Shown: positions 9,592 to 64,000 of the stretch, one piece after another
How positions within the stretch are numbered: position 1 is the first letter of the stretch
How the letters are laid out: each line of letters opens with the position of its first letter
Assembly: GCA_028622995.1 (NCBI GenBank)
Contig: JAJQJQ010000006.1
Location: forward strand, 1,550,001 to 1,614,000
DNA from: Panagrolaimus kolymaensis
Lineage: Eukaryota; Nematoda; Chromadorea; Rhabditida; Panagrolaimidae
Length of the DNA: 64,000 bases
Direction of reading: 5' to 3'
Position numbers and translations under genes: made by a program
Notes under the pieces: model-generated
Seen by the model: the letters and a program-made list of their open reading frames with translations, nothing else
Databases searched by the model: none
What the model was told of the DNA's origin: nothing

Positions 9592-9818
9592 TTAAATTAG
9601 AAAAATATCAAAAAACATGTAATAACGAGCAAAGAAAATCGGTAACAATAATTGATGGAAAATGTTGTTGTACGCAGCATGGATTACTTGAAGCAAAATT
9701 TTTATATCTGTATTGAAAAAGGCAATCGATTACAGTATAAAAAAACTTTTCAGCCTTTGTTGTCCCATAAATTAGAGTTTAGCCATAAATTTTAGGGAAA
9801 ACATGTATTTTTAATTTT

Positions 9819-36380: not shown

Positions 36381-39015
36381 ATGTCACAAAATTTTTCAAT
36401 TAAACTTATTTCAAATGTTGATTATATTGCATTATATATTTATGTAATTGAAGGAGCAATATTAATGATATTTAATTTTTCTCTTGCATTTGTTATTTAT
36501 TCTTCCAAACGACTTCGAGATCAAAAAGAATATGTCATTTTTGCTGCAAATATGTTTTTTGATGGAATTTTTGGTATCACTTATTTTATTGCGGGCATTC
36601 GTCGATTAAATATTTATTATAGTTCTGAAAGTAAATGTAAGTTGAAATTGGGAAAAAAATATATAAAATAAGCCTAAAACTCTGTAATAAAATTTTTTTG
36701 AAATCTAAAATTTTTACATATTTGAAAAAAGCAAGGATTTATTTGAAGGGTAAATTTTAATTTTCGTTGTTAAAAATGTTATGCATTAAGTGTTTTTTTA
36801 TAAAATTTAAAAACTGGTGAGATAACGTCAGTTAATAAAAAAAAAGGTATAAATTAACGAACACAATAAATAATAAGGGCTTCCACTTTGGTACAGTAAT
36901 TTTTATATTCAAACTGCAAATTTCAAGATTAACTGTTTTTTTTTCATTTATTTAAAAAAAACTGGAAAGTTCTATCTATTCCTGTTTTAATTTTAAAAGG
37001 AAATGCTTTATTTTAAAAACGGAATATATTAAACTGTCGTAAGAATTTTTACTAGGGGATGTTATTATTTAAATTTAAACTGAGTTGACATTATGCTCAA
37101 GTCATGAATTTTTTTTGTTAAATAAATTTATTATCTTTGGAAATTTTTATAAAGAAAAACTGAGTACCAAAGCTTTTACATAATCTAACAAAAAAATGAT
37201 ATTCTTCCTAGAATATTTTGAATTTTTAAAAACTGAGTTATAAAATTACAGTATTTTCATGCCAAAAAAAAAACAAAAAAAAACTGAGTTTGAATAAAAT
37301 ATTTTATAGATTTATTAGCATATTCCCGATGGGATTGTTTCAATGTATCACATTCATTATTTTTTGTTTATATTACTCCTGGAGTTGGGATTATTGCATT
37401 TTTAACATGTTTTGATCGATTTCTCTCTGTTATGTTGCCACTTAATTATCTTCGATTAACTTCAAAATATGCTTTTGGTTTGACCTTTTTAGCTTTATTA
37501 CTTCCATTTCCAACTTTTATTTTATCTGGAATTACAAGTTATGGAACTAAAAATGTTTTAAGTGTTAGTTTTTTTTAAATTTTTAAACTGTTTAGGATTA
37601 TTATTGATTTTTTGTTTGTTTGTTTTCAGCAAGATGAACTTTGCATTTTACAACAATCTTTGACCCAACAAATGTTTATCGCCCTTCGAAGCATTCGAAT
37701 TGTTTCAACTTTGTTGGGAGTTTTATTGTACCTTATCGTTGCAAAGAAGGTTTATAAAGTAAGCGTTTTTTGTTGGTATATTAACTGTCAGCCTTTTTAA
37801 TCTCTCTAAATTTTAACATTTCTTGGGAAAGTAATTTTCTAAAAATTGTCAAAACTTGAAAGGCAAAGATTTTAAAAGTTATAAGTTCTCTAATTATTTT
37901 TTTCTAAACTGTATATGCCATTGGAAAATGGATAATAAAAATAAAACTGTGCTTTCATTTGCGTTTAAATATTCTCTGTGAATAAATAATTCTGTGACCA
38001 TGGTTCTCGATTTTTTTTTGAGGTCGAGTAAAACAAAAATTTAAAAACTGTCGAGCAGCATCTTGATGACGTGAAGTTTGAAATGGTAATAATTCTTTGC
38101 AGTTTAAAAACCCACAAAAAAAGAATCTTCTTTAATGAACAAAAAAAACTGTATTATTTATTTTTTTCGAATTTCATCCCATAATTCTAATTATTAATTA
38201 AGCGTTTATAATATTTATTTTATGTTATCGATTTTGAAAAAAAACAGTATGTTTGTTTATTAAACTGATCAAAAGAGCTATATTATTTGCTGAATTTTTT
38301 TTTAATTAAGATTTTTTTTTAAAAATGTCCTTGATTAAGTATAGTTTCTATCATTTTAGATTTTTTCTTTCTTTTTTAAAACTGAGCCCAATTAATTCGG
38401 TTTTAGATTTTAAAACCTTCGGATGATTCCCGAGTATTTAATACCATAAATCGTCGACGAATAATAACTATGACATCAACATTTATTTTAATAACCATTA
38501 ATCAACTTGTGCTTTTTATTGCTCCTGATATTATTGTATTACTTTTACCCTCAGCAACTAATTCATTATCATTTGTATTTTATTTAATGAATATGAATAA
38601 AGGTTTGTTTTTTTTTTTTTTAAAGAGTAAACTGAATAATATAATCCACGTTTTTTATAGGAATAGTAAATATAATAATATTTTTGCTAACCCAACGCGA
38701 ACTTAGACGTGCAATAACCAAAAAATTATGGAATTTAACAAAATTTGAATCATTACCAGTAATAACAGAAAAATCAACAACCAAAATTCGAACATTCAAT
38801 ACGATGATGACAAAAGGAGATAGCAAAAAGATTGGAGGAGGAGAAATGATTAGGGTTTATTGACAGCAATTTTTTTTGTTTTGTTTTGTTTGTTTGTTTT
38901 TGAAAAAAGTTATCAAAAAAAATGTTTTATAAATTTGTAATAAAAAAAAACTGTTCCAAAAATTATTTCTTGCCACCAACAAAAAAAAAAGTTTATTATA
39001 AAATTAAAATAACTG
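36075..39015 (+). repeat. AAACTG motif cluster 1 (GPCR introns and flanks)
   Basis: About 25 copies of AAACTG or WAACTG lie on the + strand in the introns and flanks of the GPCR gene. Examples are at about 36814, 37036, 37078, 37281, 38049 and 38951. I saw none in the GPCR exons and few or no reverse complements. Each copy tends to follow an A-run and to precede a short stretch of mixed sequence. See the larger cluster 2. Confidence 0.7.
36381..38863 (+). CDS. Nematode chemoreceptor-like 7-TM GPCR
   Basis: Exons join as 36381-36636, 37310-37563, 37630-37758, 38407-38602 and 38661-38863, giving about 345 residues. Seven hydrophobic segments are visible. TM1 is around VIEGAILMIFNFSLAFVIY. TM3 ends in the DRY-like FDRFLSVMLPLNY. 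The loop before TM6 contains a basic NRRRIITMTSTF. TM7 is near GIVNIIIFLLTQRELRR. The layout resembles the srsx/srv/srw-type nematode receptor families; the exact family is uncertain. The C-terminal tail is Lys/Thr-rich. Its introns carry many copies of the AAACTG motif on the coding strand, unlike neighbouring genes. Confidence 0.78.
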
Positions 39016-39525
39016 ATTGATAAATATTGGTTTTTGTGGAAACAAAAAGAAAAGAAAATCTCGCACATTTTCATTTATTTTTTTTCGAAAGCCGGAATTG
39101 TCAAAGCTGCTGTCAAATAAAAACTTTTCAGTTGTTTCTTCTCGGAGACTCAGTCAGAGCAGAGAGACAGTTCAATTTTGTCTTCTGTGTTTTTTGTTTT
39201 GTTTGCGCAAACAAATTTTGAAACAAAAGAAGCATAAAATTTTTGTTGGAAAAAAACAAGCAAAAATACTAGTTTCCGAGATTCTTAATTTAAAAAAGGC
39301 AAAGAAAATAGCAGAAAGGTCATTGTTCTCTAAAAATGTTGTAATCAGGACATGAATTTAATGGAAAAATGGAAACTGACAAAAATAATAATAGTATGCA
39401 TTGGGCGGAACATAGATCAACATGAAAAGCTAGCTAAAGACAATATTGGATTAAAATATAATTTCATTATTATCCTTTCTTTGACTATTTTTGATCCTCG
39501 TCGAAGTAGTTCAGTTCAGCCAACG
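38864..39525. other. Gap between GPCR and lustrin-repeat genes
   Basis: About 0.66 kb with the GPCR 3' UTR, the last two AAACTG copies of cluster 1 (about 38951 and 39010) and a moderately complex leader for the next gene. A tttcag-like acceptor at about 39511-39516 precedes the chosen ATG at 39526. Confidence 0.5.
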
Positions 39526-41622: not shown

Positions 41623-42274
<652 letters not shown>

Positions 42275-42899
42275 TTTCAAAGATCAATGACGAATATGAA
42301 CACACGCCTGAAAAATTAAAATTTAGTAAAAACATTACAAAATACGATATGTGATGAGGAGCAAAGAAAAAAAGGAGAGCATTGAGGCTGTTGCAAGTTT
42401 GAAGCACTTATCGCGAGCGAGCATGAACGCGAGTTGATGATTTCAAAAAAGAGCTCGGCTTTTCCCTTCAAGATTTTTCTACGTGATAATGAAGGTATTA
42501 TGAAGTAATTTCAAAAGACTAATAAGTAGCATAGTTGTCATAATTAGTTACGAGTAATACCAGTCATAAGTACATTAACTTTATTTTGTTGAAAGGATTT
42601 ATTGAATCCAACTCCTGCTTTTCCTTCAACACAAACAAATGAACAAGATAGGGTTTTTAGTTAATTGAGATAAAAGGTGTTCAATATTTTCACTCATGTA
42701 TATGATAACCTATTCACTTCCTCACATTGCTTCAATCACGAATATTCAACAAAAATAATGTAAAAACATCTTCATGCTTTTTAAGCCAGAAAAGTTAATT
42801 TAACCACATTTATTAAAAGTTATAATGTGTTTGTAAAAAATGCCCTTTATTAAAATATTAATACAAAGAAATAGTAAACAAAAACACGAACAAATTAAA
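42275..42899. other. Spacer between the two ARF copies
   Basis: About 0.63 kb of spacer. The first 40 bp upstream of copy A, including acacgcctg, match the leader of copy B (43536-43570). The leader and its acceptor were therefore duplicated with the gene. A 5' UTR intron or trans-splice acceptor at cag|GCGTGTGTTC is likely in both. Confidence 0.55.
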
Positions 42900-44431
<1,532 letters not shown>

Positions 44432-46156: not shown

Positions 46157-49100
46157 TATTTTACTTTTCTACAAAGAAAGTAGCTAAAATAAAACAAATT
46201 AATTGATTTATTTATTTATTTTAAAGAAAGCAACCGAGTTAAAGAATAAACTATAAACAAAAATAAAGCAAAGAAGAAGAAACCGCAGAAAAAAAAAAAT
46301 TAAATAACAACAACACGAATGAATGCAAAAAAGTTTATTTTTTTTTTTTTCGATGAAAAAATAAACAACAAGAGGCGAGGCGACAAACAAACCAAAAAAC
46401 TTTTCTCTATTCGCAATTGGAAATTTTTTTGTTTCTCTAATATTTTTGTTGTTGTTGTTGTTGAGCCAAAAACAAATATGCATTCGGTTGGTTTTTTTTT
46501 TTGTCCTCGTCCGTCCTTTGTCGTTCAAATTTTTTTTCTTTCCATTTTCTGACGGACGCTTTTTTTTCTTCATCTCTTTTCTCTCAATCCTTTTATTGCT
46601 TTGGTAGTTGTTGAAAAACGCATGAATGAATGGAAATAAAAAAAACAGGCAAACAACATAAATAAAGAATATCTTCGAACGGAACACAACTAACCAAATA
46701 CTTCGAAAATCAAAATTAAAGTTTTAAAATTGACAATGTTTTTTTTTTAATAAAAAGATTTGGTTTTTTGTTTGTTTAAATAAAAAATCAAGTTAAATTA
46801 AATAAACTTTAATTTTATGGGGAATTATATATCAGAAAATAAGAAATAAAAGGAATTTAAAAAAAAATGTAATTGATGGTTTACTTTTGGAAAGAAATTA
46901 CTAAAAATTGAAATTATTTTTTAGAAATGAATTTGAAAGATAAAAACTGTCATGAAATTAACTTATATTTATTTCTTTAATTAAATGAATAAAACTGTTG
47001 TCGCCATTTTTGCTTTTTCCTAAAAAAACTATCGACACAAATATTCAATGTTCTAAAAGATGAAACTGGTATAAAAATTTTTTAGTGCTGAATCATAAAT
47101 AAAAAATATTAATTAAATAATAATAACTGTCTAACGATTACATGGATATTATTAATTACAAATTAATAAAAAAAATAAAAACTGATTCTAGCGAAGCTGA
47201 TTCTCTTGTTGAAGTATTTTAATATAATAAATTGTTGCGAATAAAATAAATTGGCAAAACTTGTTCAAATTAAAGTTTGACAAAAAAACATGACTGCCAT
47301 CCAGAAAATAAGAATGGCAACTCTTGTTGTTGATCTAGAGAACTTTTTCTTTATTCGATTTTAAAATTTTTCATATCTGCAGGAATTTCAAATATGTACT
47401 TTTTCCAGAAACCCACAAAAGTGGGTCAAAAATATTATGTTAAAGCTCAATTTTTTGTCTGCAGAGCATACATAATTTTATTATGGATAGGATTTTTTTC
47501 TTCGTCAGTTGGATCGCTTTTTTCTCACTTTATTTAAAAAATTTTTGTTACTTTAACTGTATTTTAAATTTTCTTCGTTTTTTAAAATTCATAACTGCAT
47601 TAATCTTTTGAGGACCTAAAAAATAGACAAAAATTTATAACTGTTTTTTGGATAATGTACAAAAATATTCTTTAACTTATGGCTTTTTATTTATTTTTGT
47701 GTGCTTTTTTTTACTTTTATTTGCCATACTTTTTTTTTTCAAGCTTCCGTAAACCAAGGATTGGAAGATTTTTAACCTTTTTCTTCTCCCAAAGAAAAAA
47801 AGAGATATAAGATGTCTTTGATTTCATCTTCGTCGTATATATTCTTCTTCATCTTTTAAGAAGAAAAAAAAACTTTGTTTGCTTTTATGATGCCAATTCT
47901 AAGTAAAAAGAAGTAAAGAAGCAATGGCGAAGAATTACTGACTCAAATGAAAAAAATACTTTGCAACTTCTTTATTTCAATTTTTTTTTTTATTAAAAAA
48001 AGATTTATATATTGGCCCAATTTGTTTGTTGTTGTGAGAGATTCTTTCTCTCTTCATTTTTATTTTATTCTCTTGCTTCCTTTTTTAATTTTTTCTTCTT
48101 CTGAAGTTCGTTAATACTAAGAAAATAAAAAAAAATTATATGAGATTTTCTTAATTATTTTTTCTTTAATAATGTTTTATTTCATAAACTGGGTTTCGAT
48201 GCTCTAATTTGGAGATGATCCTTGAAAAAATTTCAAGATAGCATTTTTTAAACTGAGCTACGATGCTGTTTAATATTTTCGGTTTTCAAATAATAAAATA
48301 AATTTTTTTCATTTTTTTATATTAAAAAGAAAAAAACTGTAACTGCAAAATTTTTTAAATTAACTTTTTTTAAAGCTTTTCATTGTTATTCTTAGGTTGT
48401 ACATAATTTACAGAAAGAAGCTATATCTTAAATACAGTATTTTTTTCTTTTTAAAAACTGTCTCGCAAGGTTGGTGTTGGATAGAAAACAAATATTTATA
48501 AGGTTTGATCTCTAAAAAAATAATAAATTAAACTGAGTTTAGAATTGGCGGAAGAAATACATTTAAAAATTTTTTATTTATACTATATATAATAAAAATT
48601 AAAAACTGCAGCTGCAAATAATTGATGGAAGTAAATCATAACTGTCCCATTATTACTATCGATATCAATAAAAATTTTGTATGTAAAAACTGTCATTTTA
48701 TGATTTGTTAGAAAAAATATGAAAATTAAGAAAACGCGTGGCGACTCCGCGCCATATGTTATTTCTTTTAAAAACAGATTTTTGATGTGTTTTTTTTTTA
48801 TAATACCAAGCTTTAAAAAAAGCAAACTTTATTTTCCAAACTAATAACCACCAAAAAAACAAAAACAAAATCATTTATTCAATAACCGAAAAAAAAGAAT
48901 CATTCAAGCGAATCTTTTTTTCTTTCTTTCTCGTTTTTGTTGGTTGACGCTAAAATTTGCCTTTTTTTGCTTCTTGCTTCAGCTTCTGCTTTATTCTGTC
49001 GCAAAAAAATTCCAACAATAAAAAAAAGTCAAGCAAAGCCTTCTTCTTCTTCATCCTCGGAAGTCTCAATTTCGTTTAAACTAATTTTTTTCGTCGTCGG

Positions 49101-49813
49101 AATTTTTTTGTGTGCGTCGATTTTTGACTTCATAATTTGCCTTTAAATTGAATAAGTTTTTCCGCCACGGCATCCATCATCCCTTGACGCTATATATATA
49201 TTTTTCCATTCTTACATTTTCATTTTCTGTCATCGCACTTTTTTTGGGCCACAAAAAAAAGAGTTACATAAAAGATTTCTTTTTCGTTTTTTATTTTTTC
49301 ATGTTTTCAATCCATATTTTTTGTGGTAAATTATTTATTTTTATTTTTTTTTGATTAAAACTGATTACCATAAACTAATTTTAAGATTCTTTCATTTTAG
49401 ATATTAAAACTTTGGGTTTAATAAATACATGTCATAAAAAATGACAGTTTGGAAGTTTATGTTTAAAAAACCATTTTTCTAATTTTCATAAATAACTGGG
49501 CAGCATCATATTAAGGGGATATTTATATAAGATATAAATTAAAAATAAATTAAAACTGTGGCAGTTGACCATAATTGATTTTTATTAATTTGTTTTATAA
49601 TAATTATTAAAAATAAAGCTTATAACTGTCACCAGAATTTTTAGAAATTTAACTGAATTTTTCATTTTTCTTTTGTTTGTCTTAAAATGTTCGCCATTTT
49701 TGTATGTATCTTTAAAAATGATATTTAACTGATTTAAATTTGATTAATGTTTATATTTTTTTAAAACTGCATTATAATCATAAAAACTAAAATTTTCAGA
49801 AATTAAAAAAATA
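46157..49813. other. Divergent upstream region of the Kv channel gene
   Basis: This 3.7 kb lies between the divergently read ureidoglycolate-lyase-like (-) and Kv (+) genes. From about 46940 it carries AAACTG copies. It may be partly a 5' UTR intron of the Kv gene, because an acceptor ttttcag lies at 49793-49799, just before the ATG. No separate gene was recognised. Confidence 0.55.
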
Positions 49814-52800
49814 ATGTCTAAAAACATTTCAACCATTGATCAAATAGATGCCGCAAATTTGGCTGATTCTCCAGCTCATTCAGGACCATTTCGACGGTTT
49901 CCAAGTCAACAGTCAACTATTCGAAGCGTGGAAAGATATCCATCAAAATCGGGTGAATTAGAAACTGATAGGTTTGTGAGAATTTTTAAAACCATGCTGC
50001 GCGCTTTATTTATTTTTTAAACTGAATGTCCTGAAGTCGTTGAACTTAAATTTGATAATGCTTTAAAAAAACTGAGTTAAGTTAATTTATTTGGTTTAAA
50101 AACAAGTCTAAAAATCTATGAAAATGTAAATAATAAAATTATTATTTTCGAAATAAAAAAAACTGCACCATCAAACTATTTTCTTTGAAAAATTTATAAC
50201 TGTCTTTGGCTTTTTTCTTTTTAGCGGTTTTAAACATTTTTTTTAAATTAAAAACTGTAGCAATACTTTCTAAACGTTTTGGAAAGAAGGTTTATGTATT
50301 CTTTTTTTTGTTGCTATTTTGCAATCTGATATCCAACATCTAAAAAAGAGTTTTCTTCCATTTCTTACGAATTCTCAAATTCTCAAAACTGTTGTTCATT
50401 TTTCTTGTTTTTTAATTCTAAAGATTACCAAAAAAAGAAAAGCACTTATTTTTAATGTATTACAATAAATAAGAAAACTGTTATTCACAAGTAACATACT
50501 AAAAAAATTTTAACTTTAAATTTAATGTTTTAAAAACTGAATCACCAGGGATATTTTTTTGTTTTGACATTTTATTAGCAAATAATTTTTTTTCCATTTA
50601 CTTATTCTAAAAAATTACATATTCTTAACTTCTTACTTTTTTTTCTATTTTTGAAAAAAAAGAAAGAAAAAAGAGATGAATAATCGTTTAAAATTACCCT
50701 TTTTCCGCGCACATTTCTTTGAAGCTTGAAGCTTTTTTTCTCTTTCTTTTTTAAATTTAAAATAAAAAACAGGACGACGGCAAAATAGAAATTTTTCTCT
50801 TCTTTTTTGCAGAATTCATTTAAACGCGGTTTTCATATACATATAAATATATACAACGTGTGAAAAAAAAGAAAAGAGAGAGAGTCTATGAAAGGAATAA
50901 AAAAAAAGAAGCTTGTTGATGCTGGAGTGAGCTTCTGTTCTTGTCATTTTCCCTCTTTTCTCTCTTTATTTTTTTCCCCTTACTTTTTTTTTGTGTCGTT
51001 AATAGTAGTTATATTTTATATTTTATTTTATACTAAGCTTCCCCTATCTTTTTTTTTCTTTTTCATATACACCCCTTTTTTTATATTTGTTTTATGTTTT
51101 AACATAACAAAACTTTAAAACAATTGAAATTGACACTTCTCTTCGTTTTTATTTTTTCGGATAAAAAGAATGAGGGCTTGGCTTCTTATAAATATTATTC
51201 TTGCCCGTGTTGCCGTCAATAATAATAATAAATAATAAGGATTTCTTTCTCTCCTTTATTTCTGAATGTTTGTTTTTATATGTATGTGTATGGCTTTGTC
51301 GTCGAGGCCGTTGTCGAATTTTTAATTTCAACCGATTTTTTTTTGTTTGGCTTATGCCGAATTTTTGTTAGCTTTTTGCTAAACTTAAAAGTATACCTTT
51401 CAAAGTTTTTTTGACGTAGTTAAATTTCTTTTACCTTAAAATTATAAAAAACTGAATTCACGTATTTTTTTGAGATGTTACCTCTCAAGAGATTTTTTTT
51501 AGCGATGATTTAAAACTGTCATTTAATGAATCGTTACTTCAGCATTTAATATTTTAGGTTACCATAAATTTTAATTTTATTTATTAAAACTGTTTCTTTA
51601 AAAACAACTTTTAGAAAAAAATTTAAACTGAATCCTTCGATATTTTATTTTCACTGGCATTGGCAAAATCGAAAGATGTTTTCAAGCTAAATTTAATTTT
51701 AAAAAACTGATATATAGAGCATTCATAGGAAAAATTTCTTAGATTGTTCGAAAAATGGATCGCTCAAAAATTATCTTTGTTCTATCTTTTTATTGAATTA
51801 GTAATTTCCCTAATTTTTCGATTGACCCTCGTTTCATAACTCGGAAAATACAAAACTGCAATAATTTAAATTTCTGCCGTTAAGATAAATATTTTTTATA
51901 AAAAACTGATGAGATTTTTTGGCGACGACTTTGTCATTTGATTGATTAAAACTGAAGAACATTTAACACTGCGGATTAAAAGTATTGAAAAATCTTGAAA
52001 ATGTGGGAGGAATTTTCGGCCATTTTAAAACTGTTATAGATGGTTCCTGTTGTGTCATCGGAATAAAACTGGTTTGAGGTGTTTTGAGATAGATTTATGA
52101 AATCATTCTGCAATTTTTTTTTGCTATTAAAATTTTTGGAATAATTATTAAACTGTGTTTTGTATAAACGCCAAATTAATATTAGTAATTTAAAACTGAT
52201 ACAAGTTTAGCTCAGTCGCGTAAAATCCGAAAAAGACACAAATTAATGGTCATTAGTCATTTAAAAAAATTAAATAACCCATTTTCCCTCTCTTTTTTTT
52301 TATGGACTGACTTGCGCCATTTTAAAAGCAAGCAGCTATCATCAAGAGTTTTTTTTTATTTTGGACATTTCTTTTTTTTCTTAAATTTTTTGTTTTGTTT
52401 AAATGAAATGAAAGGACACCAGAGTGAGTGTGTTAACAAGATTCTGTCTCTTCCCCCAATCATTCACGACCCATTTCCGGTGAAACAAAACAAAAAAATA
52501 GATGGATGGAATGGGATGGCATTTGTCCAACCAAAGGAAAAAAAAATAGGGCTCTCTCTATCAATACTCTCATTTTTATTTTTTTACTCGAAAATTATTT
52601 TTGGAAATAAACCCACTTTTTTTGCAACCAAAAATTATTTTATTTTTTGTTTTAATTTTTTTAAACTGTGCGCGTGAATGGTTGAAGTCGTTGGTTACCA
52701 AAAACTATTTTTAAAATTTTTAAACTGACAATTTTGATTGACGGCAGCATGAGCCCAAAAGAGATTCTTAAAAAAATTTATTGATAATAATCTAAATTCG

Positions 52801-55800
52801 ATAAAAAATATTTATTTTTATATTCAATATTGTTAGAATTAAGAAACTGAGTAAGCGAGAAATTTGTGGTATCACAAATTTTTCGAGTAAATTTTTTTAA
52901 AACTGTGATATGATGATCAAAAATGTCTAAATTTTAATAACAAAAAACTGTCCATAATTACTTGTCCGGGACTTTTGTTTAACTGATTTAATTATTTTTT
53001 TATTTTTTGATGTAACTGCCTTACTCCGAAATATAAAAATCAATTTACATTTTTTTAATAATTTTATTGCTAAATTTTGAAGCCTCGTTATTAAAAACTT
53101 AAATTTTTAAGCTATGAAATGAATACGGTCAATAAAAAAGGCGTTTTTTAAAAATGTTTATAGCTAAATAATTCAAAAACAGCACATAAATGTTATAATA
53201 TTCTTAATATTAATTTCACAAAAAATGAAATAAAAACTGGGACATGACGAAATCTTAGGTGCGCAAATCTGAATTTTTTTTTGAAATATTATTTTTTTAA
53301 ACTGAAACTTAAATTAACAACATGGTTAAATTTAAAACACCAAAAAAAACTGTCAACTTCTAAGAATTTTTAAATTAATTTATTGGCTGCTTTTCTTTTT
53401 TTAAATTTCTTTTGAGAAAAAACTGCATTTTCGTAAAAAATATTCCATTACATTTTAATTTTATTTTTACCTGCATTTTTTACTTTTTCCAATAAAAACC
53501 AAACATTTTTTTTTGTTTTATTTTGTTTATTTATAAAATCTCAGTTATGGGCCAGAGCAACAACAACAAGCTCTTGTTGTTAGTCAGACATTTAATCCAA
53601 TCCTTCAAACACGCCACCACCTCCACTTTTTTTTCCTTCATGACTGTCGTCGTCGTCCTATTATGGCAAGAAACATGCTTTGCTTTTAATTTTAATTTTA
53701 TTTTTTTTGCATCATTGCTTTTTTCCAAAAATGTTTATATAAAATTTATAGTCTAGTTTTTTTTGGCATTTTAAAAGGCTACGTGTATTTTTTTTAGTTT
53801 AGGAATGTCACAAATAACTGTCAGCTTTTTTTCAATAATTTTTTTAAAATTCTTCTAAAACTGTTTTTTGAAAATAATTTTAGGTAAAAAAAAAGTTTGT
53901 TAGATCCACAAAAAAACTGGTTGGAGTTGTAGTGAGTTATTTATTTTCATAATTTGTAAGAACAAAAAAAACTGTGGTCCTTGAGTTGACAAAATAAATT
54001 TTTTTTATGTATTTTTTATTTCGAATTTATTCTTTTCTGCTTCTTTGTAAAATTTAAGTTAAACTGAGAAAAATGAATCAATCAGAAAAAGGACTTTAAA
54101 AAAGTATGGTAGTGATTGTTTTTTAATTGCGTTTGTGTTTAGTATGATCGTGTTCTTGATTCAGTAAACACATTTCTCGGGATCTTTTTTCTAAATAGAA
54201 TTTTAATTTTTTAACTGCTTTTCATTTCAAAAAACATTTTCTTTGATAACTGATTTGAGTCATGTTTAATTGAGATAAGCCCCAAGGAACAAAAAAACTA
54301 CATTAAATTTTAAAAAGAATAAAAGAAAATTTTCTTAAACTTTTTTGATAAAAAAAACTGACACGAGCAATTAATGAAAGGAACTCCTTCCAATATTTTT
54401 TTATACAATAGCTTGTTATAAAAGAAATTAAACTGATATATTTTTAATGACAATTTATTTAACTTTTATTAAAACGCATATTTTTTTATTAAACTGCTTC
54501 AATTTTTTCTTCGTTATTCCATAACTGTCAACAATATAAATTTTATTTTTTCAGTTTCGTCAAAATTTGCACTGTAATTTATATTTTTTTTTATTTGTTA
54601 AAACTGAGCTCTGTTATTAAAAAAATTGAAAATTTGCAAAATTATCAACAATGTTCATGCAATATTTTTTTTCTTTCTTTCCCCTTATTTATTCTTTTAT
54701 TTTATTTTTTTCGTGTTTTGTTGTTTCTCTGAGAAACAACAACCCTTTTCTTTTCTTATTTTTTTTCTTATTCATTTTCTTTAACGAAGAAGGCAGGCGA
54801 CAACAGAAGAAAAAAAAAAGTGACATGGAAACGGCACATTAAAAAACAAGCTTTTTTCTTGCCTTTTTGTGTTTTTTTTGTTCTTATTTCCTATTTAAAA
54901 AAAGAAAAAAAAACTTGACTTTTGTTTTTTACATAACAACAACGAAGGACACGACAACCTTTACTCTACTTTTTTTTGTTGTTTTAAACTGGATTCGGAA
55001 AAAACATTTGACTTTAATGTATTCAAACCTTTAAAGGCAAAAAAAAACTCTGATATGTGGTTAGGGGATTCTTCATTATAGTGGTGTAGTCAACTGAGTG
55101 AAGATAATTAGAAAATATTTTTTTAATAGCATCCTTTTTTGGATAATTGGTAGCTGTTGTTGTGGTTGTTGTTTGTAGTTGAAGTTATTTTGAGAATGCG
55201 AGGTGGTGGTTGACATTATTTTAATTATTTTATTTTATAATTTTAATAACTCTGATTATTTTTTATTTTAGTTTTGTTTTGCTATTTTGAGTAAAAAAAT
55301 GGTTATGGTAATATAAATTTTTGAGTGAGATAAAACTGTGAAGTGTTATAATTTTGAATGAATCATATCTTATAAATTTTCGTATTTTTTAAACTGGGTT
55401 TGATATTCCATTTTTTTAACTGCATAGGCACTTTTTAATTTTTCTATCAAATAATTTTTTAAATAAACTGAAATTTTTGAAATCTTCGGTTTTTTAAATC
55501 AAATCTTGGTAAAAAAATGTTTTAACTGAAACTTGAAAATATTCTGTACATTCTGTTCTCGAATAGTAAATAAAAAAAAATTTACTGAAAACCAAAGTTA
55601 AAACCTAGTATTTTTATGCAATAAAATTTAGAAATATTCAAAAAATTTCTTAACTGGCGCTCCTTTTTATTTCATTTTTGTTATGATTGGATAAATGGCT
55701 TTTTTTTCCTTCTTCAAATCTTCTGTATTTGAAAAAACAGGTTACATATGGTAATTTAAAGGAGCAACATAAAACTGATTTGTTCAAAGTCTTCCAAATT

Positions 55801-58800
55801 TTTTACTTTATTTTTTATTTTTTAAACTTGGTTGAAGGATTCGGAGTTTTTAAAAGCATATTTCTTTCTTATTTATAAAGAAATTTTTATTAAATTTTAA
55901 TAAACTGCATTTTTGAGAAAAAGAATAAATATTTTTTTAAATTCATATCTTTTTCTCAGCTTTTTTAGATTTTGTTTAATTCTTTTTATTCTGTGTTTTC
56001 GAATAGTAAAAAAGTTAATTAAACTGCATATAACGTTGAAAGGATTGTAAAAAGTTTTATTTTAATACAATAAAATCAACAAAGATTTAAAAAAATTTTT
56101 TAACTGACGGCGAGTTTCTTCAGATTTTATTCCTTTTAATTTTAGAATGATAAAATACTTTTTTTCAAATCTTTAATAAACTGGTAACTGGACGGTGCAA
56201 CAGAAAAATAAAAAACTGAGCTTAAACCTAACATTTTGTATTCAAATTTATAAACTGCTTTGTACTAAAATTGATGGAGAAAAATTAATCGCTTCTAATT
56301 AAAATTTATAATATTCCATTTCTGAAATTTTTTTATATCTCCTCTTATTTTTTATAGAGGCTCAATGCCGCCGCTAGTTTTTATTTTTTAGTATTTTATT
56401 TTATTTATTTTTTCATTTAAAGCAAAAAATAAAAACTATCGAGTGTCTTTTTTGTTGGTATATATATATTTTTTTAAATGAACAATAACAATGCCAAATA
56501 AACCTATTAATATTTCATGAAATGTTCGTTCATTTGTCGTCGTCGTCGTTGTCATCGTCGTCGTTGTCGCCTTAGACTCACTCACTTTCATATAATTTTT
56601 TTTTGTTCTGTTGAGCTTTATGTTTTTTTTCTTATTCCTTTTCTTGTTTTTGTTTTGGCACACGTTGATGGGTGCTTGCTAGCTTGCTAATAACTACTAC
56701 TTACTATTGCTTTTGAATGCGCATAAAATAAAAAAAATTTAAATTAGAAAAAAAAAAGAGAGAGGATGAGAAACCAAAAAAAAAACTGAAATCTATCGTT
56801 AATGAAGGGTAAAGAAAAATTAATATCTAAAAACCGTTATCAAATATCTTCAAAATCTGCGTTTCTTGCAAAATTTTTATTTAATTTTAAAAAACTGAGA
56901 TCGCCCGAGATATCTTTATTTAATAATTTATTTTAAACTGTAATCCTTCTATTAATTTTTTATGCTAAAAATATAACACTAAAAATTTAAATTTCAGCTG
57001 TTTGATGCAATTTTTATTTACTACGAAATTTTAAATTATTTGTTTGTTTTTTCAAAAAAATTAATTGCATTCTTTTTCTTTCTTACAAACTCATAAAATT
57101 TTTATCTGTGACAGATGTGTTTTTCTTTCTTTTTTCAAATGTTTTTATTTTACTATTTTATTAACCCTTTTTTTTATTCTTCCGCTTTTTTCAATCAATT
57201 TCTCTTTGAAAAAACTTTATCACTGAGTTCTGAGTTTTTTTGTTGTTGGTATTTATGGGTCTGGGAAAAATTTGAAGCTGGGATAGACAGGAGGGAAATT
57301 CAAATCTTTTAGTTTTCTAGATTTTTGTTTTAATAATTTTTTTTTAATTTAACAACTGTATCAACGCTTTCTTTTCGGACTTTGTGTTTTATGCTTTTTA
57401 AACATTTTTTTGGATTAAAACTGGCCGTTTATGAGTACTTTCTAAACTTAAAAACAAAAAAATAAATATATTTCTTTGAAAATTTTCTAACAAATTTTAT
57501 ATTACTATTTTTATTTTATCAAAACTGTGCCGAAGTATTTTTTTTTTTATTGTAAATGAAAAAATATTAAATTCTTTTATATAAAAAATTTCAGAAATAA
57601 TTCACAAATGGATACAGAATACAGGATAATATTAAATGTTGGTGGTGTACGACATGAAACGTATAAACATACATTAAAAAAAATTCCTGCTACGAGGTTA
57701 TCAAGGTATGTACATAGGAGGGATTTTCAAAACTGATGACGTAGTTTTCCGGTGGACACAAACAAAAAATTTAACTCACAATTTAAATTAAAACTGTTTA
57801 CGGAAATTCTTTCAGGATTTAAATTATTTAACTGGAAATTGTATTTCTTCTTGATTTTTAAATAATTTTTACAAAAAAAACTGTAAATAATTATTAAATA
57901 AAAAGAAAAATAAAATAAAACTGAATTGCATTTGATACTTTTTTAGGCTGACTACAAATTTAGCTAATTATGATCCAGTATTAAATGAATATTTTTTTGA
58001 TCGACATCCAGGTGTTTTTGCTTTAGTATTAAATTATTATCGAACGGGTACACTTCATTATCCACGTAAGAATTTCAAATTTTAAAATTAAAAACTGTTA
58101 TAAAAATTTTCCAAACTTTTAGTTGACGTATGCGGGCCACTTTTTGAAGAAGAATTAAGGGTAAAAATTAAACTTCTTTTTTTAAACTGTCTTATCATAT
58201 TTCAATTCTGTAATTTTTTAGTATTGGGGTCTTGATCCAAATGAAGTGGAACCATGTTGTTGGATGACATATACCCAACATCGAGATACTCAAGAAGTTT
58301 TATCAACCCTTGAAAAGCTTGATGTGGATGTTGAAAAACTTAATAATCAGGTTTGGATTTTAAAACTGTGTAGGAAGTTGGGATATGAATGGGAAAAAAT
58401 TTAAAATTTAAATAAAGGAAATGGGTTTACATCGGAATTTATTTTAATAACTGTATTCAGGTAAAAATCAAATCACTTCTTAAAAATATAATTAAAAACT
58501 GGAAAGAATTTAGGTGTAATTTTTATAGTTTGAACAAATACCAAGAAATGTTTAATATTTTTTGCTTTTTATTTTTAATTTTTTTGAAACTGATGATCCA
58601 ACATTCTCCTTCCATTTTTTGTTGTTGGTGGAGTTAGAAGCAATTGTTTTTTAAATTTTAATACATAGCTGCGGAAAATGGTTTCATTCTTTTTTTATTA
58701 ATGAAATGCATTTTATGTCTTTCATTTATCAATAAAACTGTTTTCCCCTGCAAAAAGCTTAAAATAAAACTAATAAATAAAACTGACATAAAATGGACAT

Positions 58801-61800
58801 CTTTCATATGTAACTAACTGTTCTTGTTAGTGCAATGATGAAATGCATTAATTTTAATTTTTTTTATTAAATAAACTGTTTTACATCTATCTTGATTAAT
58901 TGCTCCATTTTTTTTAAATCAATAAAACTGGAATAAATGAAGAATGATGGATAAAATAAAACTGACAGCCTTTCTTTTTCCTGTGAATTTTTTTTTCAAA
59001 TTAACTGGTCTTTGATTTTAATTTTTTTTTCGTTAGATAACTTTTGAATACATTGATTTAAATATAAGTAAATAAAATAAACTGTCGGGAGACTTGATTA
59101 TATTTTCCATTATTTATTTTAGGAAGAATTATATAAACGTTTTGGTTGGGAAGATGATTATCATAATCAATCATTGAGTTTATGGCAAAAAATAAAACCA
59201 AAATTATGGAGATTGTTTGATGAACCATCTTCATCCACTGGAGCTAAAGTAACTGATACAGCTTGTGATTCGTTTTAAAACTAAAACTAATTTTTTTTTA
59301 TAGGTAATAGCAGTAATTTCAGTATTTTTTCTTATTGCTGCTATTGTTGTATTTTGTTTAAAAACTCATCCAGGTTTAAGGGTATATGAAATTGATAGCA
59401 TCACAGTAAATATATCAAATCCACATTATCCTGGTGTTTCAAAAAATCATAAAGATTCAAATCGAGGAGGAGGAAATAATAAAGGCAGCACAGGAGTGGT
59501 GGAACAACAAAATCAAAATCGAAGAAAACATCGAGATGATAATGATGAAGAAGAGGAAGACGATGGTGGAGGTGGAGGAGGAGGCAATAGTGATGGCGGC
59601 CCAAGATGGAAAAGACAAACCACCATGTGTAAATACAGGACAGAAGCAATAGGAATAGATCAAAAATCTTCTAAACCTCATCCAAGTTTTATGGTTAGTT
59701 TTAAAGTTTAACTGTTTACGAGGAAGATTTGTTGATGTTTGTCATATTTTTCTAAAAATTTTATTTAAATAAAAACTGCACAGGAGATTGCGAAATTAAG
59801 ATTTTTTGAATATTTTAAAAAACTGCCACAACAAAGCATATTGCTTATAATTTTTTTTTAAATCTAAAAAACAACGAACTTTGTCTTTTGAAAAATAAAA
59901 ACTGTTTAAAACTTTACCTACTTTTTTTTCAAAGTCTAATTTTTTTTAGCAAGAAATACTTTTTTTTATCATTCATAGAAAAACTGACATCTTTGCATAA
60001 CATTGGAAAGTATAAAGTTAATATTTCTTTTTTTAGAAATTAATAATACTTCATAGAAGAAGAAAAAAACTGTGGAGACATTTTTACTTTTTTGTAACAA
60101 CTAAATTTTTTTAAACTGTATACCATTTTTTTTTGATTTTTTTGAAAAAATATTCCCTTAATTTTATGTTTTTGCTCTCAAAACTGTCGCCAGCCAATAT
60201 ATGGCTTTTTTATTTTGGATTTCCAACTTTTAAACTGCGTATTTTTTTCAGATTGTTGAAACTATCTGCAATGTTTGGTTTACAATTGAAATAATAATTC
60301 GGTAATAATTTTTAACTGTCATTTCAAAACAATCTTTTGATTTTAATTATTTTTAGATTTTTAACAAGTCCATCTAAAATAAAATATTTTAAAGCTCCAG
60401 TAAATATAATTGATATAGTTGCAACTTTAACATTTTATGTGGATTTATTATTAGCCACTTCATTTGGAACCACAGCTGATTTGGAATTTTTATCTATTAT
60501 TCGTATTATGAGATTATTTAAATTAACTCAACATTCTCAGGGATTAAAAATTTTATTGCATACTTTCAAGTAAGAAGGAAGCTTTTTTTTAAAAATAGAG
60601 TAAAAAACTGAATTTGATAATAAATTAAGGAATTTTAAAATTAAATATAAATAATAAAACTGTCAAAAAAATTTATTATTTGAGTTTTATAGAAATTTTT
60701 TAATTTTTTTTTGCATTTAACTGTCGCCCTTTTTAACCTTTTTATTTTTTATTACTGCTTGAACGTAGTTTTTTAATTTTTTTTTGTAAAGAAAATTTAA
60801 TAGAAATCTAAAAGCAATAGAGGTCTAAAAAATATTTACATAATTATTTTAATTGGGTTTTAAAACTGCATCGGTTTGTTTTCGCGATACAAAAAACACT
60901 GCACATGAAAAGGAAATTTTTTTAATTTTTTTAAAAATAAAAACTGTAGTATGATATTTATACCGGAGTATTTTTTATTTTTACTTCTTAAAATAAATAT
61001 TTAAAAATTTTATTTCACACTTTCAGTAAGTGGAAGATTTGTTTAAAAAATTTAAGTAGACAATAGAAAACTTTTTTTTTGTTGATAATTTAAAAATTTT
61101 ATTAATTAAAAAAACTGTTAAATGAATTTATTCCAAAGCTTTTATAATTTTTGAAAGAAAAATTTATTTTTATGGCATTTAACTGGTGCTTTTTTAAACA
61201 GTTAATTTTTTTTTTCGGGGACTTAACTTAACTGATTTCAAAGGTTACCGGAGGTTTTAAAATACTTATGTACAAGAAATTTTTTAAATAGGGTTTTAAA
61301 ACTGCGTAAGTATGCGCGTAGGGCAAAAATTCTGCTAAATGAAATAGGGAACATTTATCCCTTTTTTTAAATTTTCTTTTCAAAAATAAATACCTAAGAT
61401 AAGAATTTTTTAAATTAAAAACTGTTGACCATAAAAGAATATTTTTTATTTTATTTTTTCAAAAAATAAATGCTTAAAATAAACTTTTTTTTCAAAGACT
61501 TAAACTGGTGCCATATGTGCAATTATGAAAAGATTATTTTTATTCAAAGTTTTAAACTGAGGCGAGGTGTCGGATTTTCAATTGCAGAATACTCTCCAAC
61601 TTAATTATCACCAACTATTTATAATAATTTTTAATTAAAACTGTGATGTTGAAATAAACTCGATTTTTTTTTCAGGGCAAGTGCCAAAGAATTAATGTTA
61701 CTTGTATTTTTCTTGGTTCTTGGTATAGTTTTATTTGCTTCACTTGTATATTATGCGGAAAGGGTGGAAGTAAACCCAGATAATCAATTTCAATCCATTC

Positions 61801-62628
61801 CCCTTGGATTATGGTGGGCTGTAGTAACTATGTAAGTCTTAAAACTAACACAAAAAAAATTAAACTGAATTAGGTTTATTTACAATTAATAAAAAAACAT
61901 TCGTTTCAGGACCACTATAGGTTATGGTGACATGTGAGATTTTTATTTGCTATTTTAAAAACTGCACCAAATTGAAATTTTATTTTAGGACTCCTCATAC
62001 ATATCTTGGCCGTTTGATAGGTTCCATTTGTGCTTTAGCTGGTGTATTAACCATCGCCCTTCCAGTTCCCGTTATTGTTAGTAATTTTGCGATGTTTTAT
62101 TCTCACACGCAAGCTAGATCTAAAATGCCTAAAAAGAAGAGGGCTGTATTAAATTTGGAACAGGCAAGATTTAATTATTTTATTTTTTTAAACTGAAGTT
62201 GGAATTTTTTCTTTGGTAATTGAAAAAATAGCAAAAAATTTTTTAACTGTAAATTTTTCTTTTTATATTTTTGATTAATAAACTGTGATAGATTTTCATA
62301 AGACTTAAAAATAGTTTTGAGAAAACTGTTCCCAGTTATTGATTTTTTAATAATAAAAAATCTTTAAAACTGATAAAAATTATTTTTCTTAAAAAAAATT
62401 CTTGAATTAAATTACAAATATCTTTAAAATTATAGAGTAAAAAACTGAAGAGAATTAAAAATTCGCAGATTGAATTAAAAGTTTTATTTTTAGGTTAAAC
62501 AACAACCCATAGCTCATCAACGCCGCCAGCTATTACTTGCAAATAAAAATTCATGCCAACATGAAATAACCACGCCATTATTAAATTCAAATGGTCCTCG
62601 AATGGGAATGGCCTCAGCTAGAATGTAA
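49814..62628 (+). CDS. egl-36: Voltage-gated potassium channel, Shaw/Kv3 type (EGL-36-like)
   Basis: Exons: 49814-49971, 57595-57705, 57947-58065, 58123-58160, 58222-58350, 59123-59248, 59304-59693, 60252-60301, 60357-60569, 61676-61831, 61910-61933, 61989-62163 and 62494-62628. T1: [30 protein letters not shown] and the Kv3 hallmark [15 protein letters not shown]1 is [19 protein letters not shown]. The S1-S2 loop is unusually long, with an acidic run and Gly run. S4 reads [20 protein letters not shown]; the pore is [11 protein letters not shown]6 is [15 protein letters not shown]. The protein is a tetrameric membrane channel for fast repolarising K+ current. Intron 1 is 7.6 kb. The last intron uses a GC donor (CAG|GCAAGA at 62164). 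An alternative start is Met at 57609-57611, just before the T1 domain. Confidence 0.95.
49972..57594 (+). other. 7.6 kb first intron of the Kv gene
   Basis: GT at 49972 and AG at 57593-57594 border this intron, if exon 1 (49814-49971) is correct. It carries most of AAACTG cluster 2. No other gene was recognised in it. Plus-strand frames such as 52246-52677 are T-rich and lack coding character. A 5' regulatory role is possible. Confidence 0.6.
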
Positions 62629-64000
62629 AAACTGTTGACCATCTTGGAAAGTTTTTCTTCATTTATTGTTTATTGAAAAATCAAATTTAAAAAAATTATG
62701 TGATATTTATATTTAATAATTACATTTCATTAAATTATTATTATTTTAACTGTCTTCTCCCATATACTGATTAGTTTTAAAATTAAATATAATTCTTAAT
62801 TTTAAACTGTCATCATTTTTCTTGAATGTTTTTGATAAAAGTGAATTTTTTTCTCTCTCGAATAACTGTAAAAAACTGTAAATTTTTGTATTACCACTCA
62901 AAAACCAAAATAAATCTCAAAAAATATTTATTTATAAAAATTTTAAACGATCTCATTCTTTTAATATTCGTTGATTTTTCTTTTTTTCAATTCAAAATAT
63001 TTTTATTTTTTGTTTAAATTTTATAAAATAATTAAGTTTTAATATTATTACGGTAAATGTTTATCCGCAACAAGTCTTTAACTGTACAAACGAAAGCTAT
63101 TAAGCCATTATAAACTGTATCTTCATGAGAGTTATGTAACAAATTAGCTCTTTAACTGTAGAAAAAAAATTCATTCCCTCTTTTTGGAAATGAATGTTAA
63201 AGATAAAACTGTAAACAAAATTTATTCTCCATTTTAAAAAAACTGCGCAATGTAATAATAACTTTAAAAAGAAGAGTTTCATATCTTGAAAATTAATCAA
63301 AAACAATTATAACTCATTTTTTTTAAAAATCGAGCTTCAGCCGGAACAGCAAAAATTTTTTTTTGCTTTTTCTGGACTAAAAACTCGATCCTAGGGGTAT
63401 CTTACTATGAAAATCACGAAAATAGAGGCCGTTTTGCCATTAGATATACTCATTCTGGAGATACAGTAACCTAAAAAGCATAATTCTAAAATTTTATATT
63501 TTGTTTTATTCATTAAAGTTCTATATACCATTCGATTCGTAAAAATGTGCTGAACAACATTGTAATTGATACCAACCTTCGATATCCGTATAAAAATAGC
63601 ACTATGCCGCTATCAAAGGTTATGAATTATAGTGTCGAAAGGAAAAGTATGTCGTAAAGTTCGATTTGGGGAGTTTTCTCAACGGAATAAAATTCTCCAT
63701 GTATTTTTGCATTTTTGTACCGAAAAAAACAAAAAATTTTAAAGCAATACGTATACCTCCCTCCAGCACGAATATAGTACACCAATATGAGGTATATGGA
63801 CAAGTATATCATAAATACATGTAAAAATTCCAAAATCTATCCAAAAACGTAGAAAAAATTATTTTATGATTTTACAAATCGAGAAAAAAAAATATTCCTT
63901 GACAGAATTATTTTTCCTGAATTTTAGGAGTTTAATAGTAGCACACGATAGATAAAAAAATAATAAAAATTCTAAAAATCAAAAATTTATTTTTGAACTC
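62629..64000. other. Downstream of Kv: end of the array, then unclassified sequence
   Basis: The first 600 bp contain the last AAACTG copies, the last near 63241. From about 63320 the composition changes to more mixed, less A/T-run sequence. It has no AAACTG and no convincing ORF. A small inverted repeat is seen where AGCAAAAA meets TTTTTGCT at about 63349-63371. This right part may be a dispersed repeat or transposon fragment that runs off the window. The identity is unknown. Confidence 0.45.

Follow-up and report, generated by a model that had tools for sequence, protein, structure and literature searches.

The window, a stretch of 64,000 nucleotides from the polyploid genome of the nematode Panagrolaimus kolymaensis, holds two arrays of the hexamer WAACTG on its plus strand, one in and around each of two genes. 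The genes, the arrays and three example units, each consisting of AAACTG and 20 nt, are as follows.

36078 to 39398, plus strand: second array, 23 WAACTG units (first WAACTG at 36078, last at 39373), in and around the 7TM chemoreceptor-like gene
36381 to 38703, plus strand: chemoreceptor-like 7TM gene, host of the second array (Srbc, 21.6 bits, just below the Pfam cut-off of 22)
46944 to 63265, plus strand: main array, 149 WAACTG units (112 AAACTG, 37 TAACTG), in the introns and flanks of the Kv-type channel gene
49826 to 62180, plus strand: scattered exons of the Kv-type potassium channel gene, host of the main array (PF00520, 67.3 bits; the Ion_trans match joins pieces of 60316-60570 and 61921-62193)
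49553 to 49578, plus strand: example unit, predicted 21-mer from the T at 49557, TGTGGCAGTTGACCATAATTG
58184 to 58209, plus strand: example unit, predicted 21-mer from the T at 58188, TGTCTTATCATATTTCAATTC
60181 to 60206, plus strand: example unit, predicted 21-mer from the T at 60185, TGTCGCCAGCCAATATATGGC

The initial annotation had described a dense, one-sided AAACTG array, and the asymmetry proves stronger than it claimed: between 46940 and 63250, AAACTG occurs 112 times on the plus strand and twice on the minus strand, TAACTG 37 and 3 times, and AAACTG is the most one-sided of the hexamers with at least 30 copies on both strands summed. The excess over base composition was borne out as well, with 4.2 plus-strand copies of AAACTG expected in this interval, while the expectations of order 1, 2 and 3 are 8.3, 25.6 and 68.4, respectively, the last already containing most of the motif. 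The copies lie in an AT-rich context, as had been noted. Their reported scarcity on the opposite strand and in exons largely holds, the listed exons having three WAACTG starts in 2,381 bp, which is rarer than in the arrays (172 over the 20.5 kb of both, exons included). The proposed tie to the Kv channel gene stands insofar as the main array lies there, but not as an exclusive one, given the second array and the membership of both in megabase domains. A scan with Rfam at gathering thresholds and a tRNA scan of the window gave no match.

Anatomy of the unit

One unit comprises 26 nt, namely WAACTG and a payload of 20 nt, as defined by composition, spacing and divergence between homeologs; the 20-25 nt of unique sequence that had been described after the motif are best described as 20 nt. 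The composition profile covers positions -80 to +89 of 595 units, a set that excludes minority-strand copies and the domain stretches without arrays (L041, L045, L046). GC content is 15.6% over positions -19 to -1, 28.6% over the payload (offsets 6-25) and 21.6% downstream (offsets 26-49), with a step from 35.6% at offset 25 to 23.9% at offset 26, that is, the drop from high to low GC at the predicted 3' end that characterizes nematode piRNA loci. Moreover, G and T are preferred 20-21 nt past the T of the motif, at offsets 24-25, where A is down to 22-24% and G up to 23-29% with the neighbouring positions unaffected, and this signal is lacking from 133 control copies of WAACTG outside arrays. 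Units rarely overlap: 17 of 600 spacings are shorter than 26 nt against about 122 expected, and the median spacing is 69.5 nt.

The same profile contains no second promoter motif over its whole span; the units show no helical phasing (all mean vector lengths below 0.06) and the autocorrelation of A-tracts no consistent 10-bp period. Weaker positional signals are present at -28 and -30. A reading on the reverse strand was rejected, as the sharpest signals other than the motif itself (offsets 7, 10, 24 and 25) follow AAACTG on the strand that carries it. Local tandem duplication was likewise rejected as the source of the arrays, a GC-containing 9-mer being common to 12 of 1258 near pairs of units and to 206 of 23995 far pairs.

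Genomic domains, host genes and strand

The initial annotation had proposed a map of the motif across the genome, and in this map dense arrays are concentrated in a few megabase domains, at 6.78-10.0 Mb of contig C3 and at about 0.26-2.7 Mb of contig C5, which lie near contig ends (right in C3, left in C5); the parts of C18, C20, C23, C40 and C42 that bear dense arrays are probably homeologous to these two domains. Specifically, 39 of 40 thinned array matches fall on C3, C5, C18, C20, C23, C40, C42, C81 and C218 and one on C19 (control 0+0), and a scan of both strands of the genome gave 120 array matches, the first 100 of them listed (control 0+1). The units are estimated to number tens of thousands genome-wide, an estimate that agrees with the many thousands of loci in megabase domains typical of nematode piRNAs.

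Within 12 fragments of 3-20.5 kb, 612 WAACTG copies lie on the majority strand and 21 on the minority strand, the weakest bias in a fragment being 13 to 3, and on the scale of a whole domain the both-strand scan finds the strands mixed. An ordinary intron or splicing signal, which the initial annotation had itself allowed for and which would invariably be sense to the gene it lies in, could account for the arrays that are sense to both host genes of the window (Kv and chemoreceptor), to the host in L040 and probably to those in L044, L005 and L042; it is contradicted, however, by the arrays antisense to an Srw receptor gene in L039 and a carboxylesterase gene in L008, and probably by that in L043, as well as by the distribution of the listed triples, of which there are four in the 23.3 Mb of C1 and C2 and none on C3 before 6.78 Mb in the plus-strand listing (none before 6.99 Mb on either strand). 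Because array strand is locally uniform but independent of gene strand, a splicing signal is barely credible. The same uniformity, with 612 of 633 copies sharing the prevailing orientation of their fragment, be it that of the gene or not, would suit long one-strand transcripts that are cut between AAAC and UG into guides of 21-22 nt in the manner of flamenco, the motif then acting in RNA. Such a precursor is nevertheless improbable, since the AT-rich 19 nt upstream and the GC-poor step downstream look as if each unit carried its own promoter and pausing signal, and the DNA between units would go unused.

Divergence between homeologs

52601 to 63330, plus strand: stretch aligned with its homeologs on C20 and C23 for the measurement of divergence
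56021 to 56046, plus strand: unit with a strongly divergent payload in the alignment of homeologs, in which the motif and most flanking bases are kept

In three homeolog comparisons from two domains (202 unit comparisons in all), the motif is kept while the adjoining 18 nt diverge 2.45-2.72 times as much as the flank. Measured at offsets 6-23 of units in which both homeologs retain an intact motif, payload divergence is 0.250 in C5/C20 (80 units; ratio to flank 2.45, interval 2.07-2.89), 0.183 in C20/C23 (88 units; 2.61, 2.17-3.21) and 0.306 in C3/C40 (34 units; 2.72, 2.09-3.61). It is the payload that is fast rather than the flank that is slow, because noncoding DNA in other, array-free parts of the window shows differences from C20 at 94 of 1365 and 31 of 274 positions. 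The fast divergence falls off 18-22 nt after AAACTG, ending near offset 23-27. The near-miss motifs WAACTH and WAADTG, the only such classes with more than 20 copies, are followed by divergence of 0.05-0.16 in six comparisons, near that of the flank; the rare near-miss [CG]AACTG is high in C3/C40 (21 of 80 and 10 of 40, from 4 and 2 copies), which may reflect true variant units or noise.

Indels amount to 20-24 per kb in the payload against 9-15 in the flank in C5/C20 and C3/C40, a 1.5-2.3-fold rise, but exceed those of the 19 nt upstream just 1.1-1.3-fold in the same two comparisons. The transition/transversion ratio is unchanged (0.95 against 0.92), and the payload stays richer in GC than the flank; the analysis of the substitution spectrum omits the listed Kv exons when the window is the reference, while the divergence measurements retain them. 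Deaminase-type hypermutation was rejected on the unchanged spectrum, and replacement of whole cassettes on the nature of the changes, which are mostly scattered substitutions with some block gaps in the 45 units viewed. An apparent constraint on the region 28-42 in the raw pooled profile was also dismissed, as it vanishes in C5/C20 once neighbouring units are excluded; under the same exclusion it persists as a tendency in C20/C23 and C3/C40.

The main rival to the reading of the units as small-RNA genes is a repair-shielded protein footprint. A polar DNA-binding protein would then recognize AAACTG, for example a factor in chromosome pairing, domains or silencing; its footprint of 26 bp would keep repair off the adjoining 20 bp and make them mutate faster, with no RNA made. 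The small number of overlapping units, the raised divergence at an unchanged transition/transversion ratio and the raised indels fit this explanation, as does the position of the domains near contig ends, which likens them to the pairing centres of C. elegans. The latter are located near chromosome ends and share with the arrays a short repeated motif in a chromosome-end domain, but neither a payload nor uniformity of strand nor a fast-evolving neighbour is known from them. A passive footprint would hardly be expected to produce a G/T preference at two exact positions or to hold payload GC above that of the flank, and substitutions are raised more than indels, although the contrast is modest; a footprint is judged unlikely. 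Mutagenesis linked to transcription alone, in which units transcribed now or formerly suffer damage in the bubble of a paused polymerase and no guides are selected, would explain why the fast stretch ends at roughly the end of a 21-26-nt transcript begun in the motif, and the indels in excess of the flank in two comparisons point the same way. The unchanged substitution spectrum, the indels little above those of the upstream 19 nt and the maintained payload GC argue against it; this explanation is held to be very improbable.

Predicted guide RNAs and related systems

The initial annotation had suggested a piRNA-like cluster with a new anchor and 21-nt RNAs beginning at the T of ACTG, and this suggestion gains from the G/T preference, the few spacings below 26 nt, the fast payload with its fall-off 18-22 nt after the motif and the megabase domains, while a piRNA in the strict sense, which would be bound by a PIWI-clade Argonaute (PRG-1), is left unsupported: searches of the genome for genes with the Piwi domain and with PIWI-like-1 found none of the PIWI clade. 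The best 20 of the 143 Piwi-domain matches listed all carry a SEGQF or SEGQY catalytic loop, as read by eye, and the best of the 54 matches to the PIWI-like-1 stretch is an ALG-1-like locus with 36.3 bits. Against a near-identical stretch, Argonaute-1 chains from the PDB score 36.7 bits and true PIWI chains as low as 29.8 (6kr6) and 38.2 (Siwi), so that bit score alone is inadequate against a divergent PIWI. The Ruby motif CTGTTTCA, expected about 40 nt before the T of a piRNA, is absent from both arrays of the window, as had been observed; its two copies in the window (29146 and 41196) lie outside them, and among the other array loci checked it occurs at one place in C3 (overlapping L035-L037). 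An origin in snRNA promoters (SNAPc) had been considered, as the reverse complement of the motif, CAGTTTW, is one mismatch away from the Ruby motif, and was rejected, the U1 promoters examined being without the motif: neither WAACTG nor its complement occurs in the 101 nt upstream in any of 11 U1 regions (10 distinct; 26 U1 matches; U1 only). The lack of a Ruby motif in the arrays, of AAACTG in U1 promoters and of a PIWI-clade gene together set the arrays apart from canonical piRNA clusters.

The reading that we favour, and consider probable, is that each unit is a tiny 21U-like small-RNA gene with a diversifying guide, the RNA itself being predicted. Behind this reading stand the invariant motif, the 26-nt unit with its spacing and AT-rich flanks, the fast payload, the megabase domains and the locally uniform strand; a nematode 21U-RNA locus would give a 21-nt RNA with a 5' U and a capped start 2 nt upstream, and in the units a T is fixed, with the G/T preference 20-21 nt past it. 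The AT-rich stretch together with AAACTG would provide promoter and start site, and from the 20 nt after the motif would come a guide RNA, about 21 nt long with a 5' U. RNA polymerase II would initiate at the A of ACTG, two bases ahead of the T, and pause where the GC-poor downstream stretch begins; the product, U-G-N19, would be loaded on a worm-type Argonaute of the CSR-1/WAGO kind, abundant in this genome, rather than on PIWI. Selection would retain the motif and favour new guide sequences, a turnover to be expected of a repertoire that races transposons or has to avoid the worm's own mRNAs. On the other side, it is not evident why autonomous units should need a locally uniform strand, AAACTG is the sole promoter motif seen, and the raised payload indels could stem from a mutational process.

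Type I piRNA (21U-RNA) clusters of C. elegans chromosome IV resemble the arrays in that thousands of very small units lie in intergenic DNA and introns within megabase domains, each with a short conserved motif, AT-rich sequence around it, a fixed T, a non-conserved payload of about 20 nt and a GC drop at the predicted 3' end. Unlike in those clusters, where the motif is found about 40 nt upstream, it directly adjoins the payload here, CTGTTTCA is absent from both arrays of the window, no PIWI-clade gene was found, one strand dominates over 3-20 kb, and the payload evolves faster than the flank. The GC-high then GC-low profile and the megabase domains recall the pausing signature that PMC6436959 reports at piRNA loci of nematodes, and the piRNAs in introns of active genes of the Pristionchus type share the small intronic units and the pausing-type GC profile but are described there as spread over five autosomes, with PRG-1 and the Ruby motif. 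As presented in PMC9203780, Strongyloides ratti, of the PIWI-less clade IV, has clustered 21-22U RNAs (regions of 1 and 2.7 Mb) with AT-rich upstream sequence and the 5' U that is predicted here; its loci, for which no motif was found there, overlap, are in part TE-derived and lie about half on an X scaffold, whereas the predicted RNA genes described here have a strong motif and seldom overlap.

PIWI and piRNAs are reported lost in nematodes outside clade V, plectids apart, and transposon control in PIWI-less nematodes is treated as an open question (PMC4323106, PMC9203780, PMC6436959, as far as the relevant passages go). It is possible, though we hold it with more doubt than the small-RNA genes themselves, that a piRNA-less lineage re-evolved a 21U-like system, a PIWI-independent and self-diversifying guide repertoire with AAACTG as promoter-initiator, megabase domains and positive diversification; it would amount to a germline-encoded, RNA-based immune repertoire. 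Data from other clade IV species weigh against small-RNA genes of this kind in general: a small-RNA library of M. incognita juveniles (J2) is described as having no piRNA-like reads, and the genome as having no reported PIWI or HEN1 gene (PMC4524723), and a 2015 survey that included larvae and adults of Globodera pallida (clade IV) is summarized, with no mention of Meloidogyne, as finding 5'-U small RNAs only in clade V (PMC4323106). With a readable motif and a payload fixed at 20 nt, the genome yields a full list of predicted guides that can be checked in small-RNA libraries, and a short sequence that outpaces its surroundings would be either a rare case of diversification among noncoding RNA genes or a new mutational mechanism. 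No published description of the AAACTG motif or array was found among the matches listed in the literature search, as far as their available text extends.

Arrays in the window and across the genome

The motif count gives 149 WAACTG copies at 46940-63250, where AAACTG occurs 112 times on the + strand (base composition predicts 4.2, an order-2 Markov model 25.6) and twice on the - strand, in agreement with the initial annotation, which had described about 150 one-stranded AAACTG/WAACTG copies that are scarce on the other strand. The window, which spans positions 1550001-1614000 on contig C5, has a GC content of 29%. A second stretch at 36078-39373 contains 23 WAACTG, and the remainder of the window, outside both arrays, 12 on the + strand. 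Across 12 fragments (the window arrays plus loci on contigs C3 and C5), 612 of 633 copies lie on the dominant strand of their fragment, and the arrays are oriented relative to their host genes as follows.

Arrays, host genes and the evidence for each gene
46944..63265, + strand: array sense to the Kv gene; PF00520, 67.3 bits
36078..39398, + strand: array sense to the chemoreceptor gene; Srbc, 21.6 bits, cut-off 22
Locus L040: array sense; Ras, PF00071, 49.2 bits
Locus L039: array antisense; Srw receptor, 25.8 bits
Locus L008: array antisense; carboxylesterase, 196.3 bits
Locus L044: array sense, weaker case; receptor match under the cut-off
Loci L005 and L042: array sense, weaker cases; coding score alone
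Locus L043: array antisense, weaker case; no Pfam match

The alternative that the initial annotation set against small-RNA genes, a sense-strand-only intron signal serving splicing, is removed because arrays are sense to some host genes and antisense to others (L039, L008).

The motif map proposed earlier, run on the whole genome (265.8 Mb, 807 contigs), confines the dense arrays mostly to domains of a few contigs. Three AAACTG spaced 25-55 nt apart match 2058 times in forward and 2103 times in reverse orientation, against 142 and 174 for the reversed control. A first thinned version of the pattern matches 23+17 times (control 0+0), with 39 of 40 matches on C3 (7.2-10.0 Mb), C5 (0.8-2.7 Mb), C18, C20, C23, C40, C42, C81 and C218 and one on C19; a second matches 56+64 times (control 0+1; locations from the first 100 of 120) and, among the matches listed, extends the C5 range down to 0.26 Mb. 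The earliest C3 triple among the matches listed, which for C3 cover the + strand only, lies at 6.777 Mb. The homeologs of the window region on C20 and C23 show 81-85% BLAST identity, and C3, C18 and C40/C42/C81 share, by eye, the same matched strings, near-identical or diverged. From this distribution we infer two domains of ~3 Mb each, with about three homeologous copies apiece. Array-containing stretches account for 5 of 8 fetched by coordinate within the domains, some picked near known matches, and for 0 of 2 outside them. The total is estimated at ~9 x 10^4 units from the ratio of WAACTG to triples, based on only 15 triples in the window arrays and five other fetched stretches together, or at 5-8.5 x 10^4 from 3-5 units per kb over an estimated 17 Mb. 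A glycoside hydrolase 28 gene is present in three similar copies (C1, C7, C47) and a further pair (C2, C17), which, together with the homeologous contig sets, the GC of the window and the CSR-1-type expansion, suggests a polyploid nematode of the root-knot kind; among nematodes, GH28 is a pointer to Meloidogyne.

Other elements were observed in these regions. Two adjacent Arf-like GTPase genes (41626-43598, - strand, by eye) lie between the window arrays, with 0 + strand motif copies; a high-copy element of ~190 bp (63307-63500; 37 further genome matches at 88-99%) starts right after the main array's final unit; and a GC-richer minisatellite, whose translation gives VLVVVGVV-type repeats, lies in the domain stretch C5:1950001-1955000, where WAACTG has 0 copies on both strands. 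A high-copy repeat of ~1.07 kb (8525-9595; matched dozens of times elsewhere in the genome at 75-87%) matches itself in inverted orientation and is therefore probably a palindromic or long-inverted-repeat transposon; C20 and C23 align either side of it and lack the repeat itself.

Architecture of the unit

A unit is taken as WAACTG plus the next 20 nt, with offset 0 at the first base of the motif. The composition profile was built on 595 unique WAACTG from the 12 fragments, six of which are motif-enriched by construction because they were picked by motif-pattern searches, although the composition signals are independent of that choice. GC drops from 22.7% at -20 to 16.1% at -19 and averages 15.6% at -19..-1, 28.6% at 6-25 and 21.6% at 26-49. 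Against a background set by the analyst, G rises to 25% at offset 7 (chi-square 126), and at offsets 24 and 25 G reaches 23-29% and A is down to 22-24% (chi-square 98 and 166), a preference absent from the neighbouring positions. With the T of ACTG at offset 4, an RNA starting on it would have offsets 24 and 25 as its nucleotides 21 and 22. The 133 WAACTG in 158.7 kb of array-free DNA show a flat GC profile (34, 32, 33%) and no preference at offsets 24-25. Unit spacings below 26 nt number 17 of 600, against 122 by geometric expectation (~95 once the impossible spacings 1-5 are left out), and become frequent from 26 nt upward.

Divergence of the payload between homeologs

The nucleotides after the motif, the payload, diverge faster than their surroundings. 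In automatic alignments, within this one genome, of 52601-63330 to the homeologs on C20 and C23, C5/C20 identity is 94% in the motif, 87-90% in the flanks and 75% at offsets 6-25. The excess holds at each reference base (A 0.242 vs 0.086; C 0.392 vs 0.173; G 0.314 vs 0.161; T 0.175 vs 0.082), with similar Ts/Tv (0.95 and 0.92), and recurs in the independent pair C3:6895001-6900000 and C40:390000-395600 (payload 0.281-0.305, flank 0.13, motif 0.07-0.09). When the comparison is restricted to units whose two copies both carry an intact motif, and neighbouring units are removed, the ratio of divergence at offsets 6-23 to the flank is 2.45 [2.07-2.89] for C5/C20 (80 units), 2.61 [2.17-3.21] for C20/C23 (88 units; a figure that mixes tracts, because some hardly differ) and 2.72 [2.09-3.61] for C3/C40 (34 units). 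The intact-motif filter anchors the alignment beside the payload and should, if anything, mask divergence. All three comparisons show somewhat more divergence at offsets 6-14 than at 15-23, and the intervals overlap.

The flanks show no unusual conservation, since noncoding DNA outside the arrays differs from C20 at 94/1365 and 31/274 positions, a small neutral yardstick from a short stretch that may include regulatory sequence. The one-mismatch motifs WAACTH and WAADTG (22-43 copies each) are followed by divergence of 0.05-0.16, about flank level; rarer classes span 0.03-0.30, with high values for [CG]AACTG in C3/C40 (21/80, 10/40). Indels in the payload are raised 1.5-2.3-fold over the flank in C5/C20 and C3/C40, and 1.1-1.3-fold over the upstream 19 nt; in 45 units inspected, the differences are mostly scattered substitutions. 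The near-identical C20/C23 tracts, aligned to 53815-54061, 54430-54601 and 55651-55902, look as if they came from gene conversion.

Candidate small-RNA genes and Argonautes

The sequence features and the divergence lead us to favour, with moderate confidence, the units as small-RNA genes with diversifying guides, whose transcription, length, Argonaute and selection we infer. The AT-rich DNA and AAACTG would act as core promoter and initiator, and transcription may start at the A of ACTG, by analogy with nematodes carrying Ruby-motif piRNAs, in which it is described as beginning two bases ahead of the piRNA and pausing at a high-to-low melting step (PMC6436959). The predicted product would be a U-starting guide of ~21 nt, released where GC drops and loaded on a CSR-1/WAGO-type Argonaute, while guide sequences would diversify. 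The available parts of the nematode piRNA literature gave no report of divergence above neutral.

The Ruby motif, CTGTTTCA, the usual upstream piRNA motif that the initial annotation found missing, has indeed 0 copies in both window arrays. A PRG-1/PIWI gene, for which a search had been suggested, did not emerge: among 143 Piwi-domain matches in the genome, the best 20 loci are, by eye, ALG-1-like, CSR-1-like or WAGO-like, with no PIWI-clade gene, and a PIWI stretch used as query matched ALG-1-like loci first (36.3 bits). In the portions available, published surveys describe PRG-1 as absent from Meloidogyne (PMC5934874, PMC4524723) and from clade IV (PMC4323106, PMC6436959). The large Argonaute set, which includes a CSR-1-type expansion, could provide partners for the predicted RNAs. 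The AAACTG-type motif is found in 0 of 11 upstream regions of U1 snRNA genes; by eye, these regions carry CTGTCTG/CTATC-type and ATTCAT-type elements at a distance of ~50-75 nt from the gene, and directly ahead of the gene a conserved CAT, with a differing subgroup on C41, C48 and C50. Several of the CSR-1-like copies carry HHKRFF.
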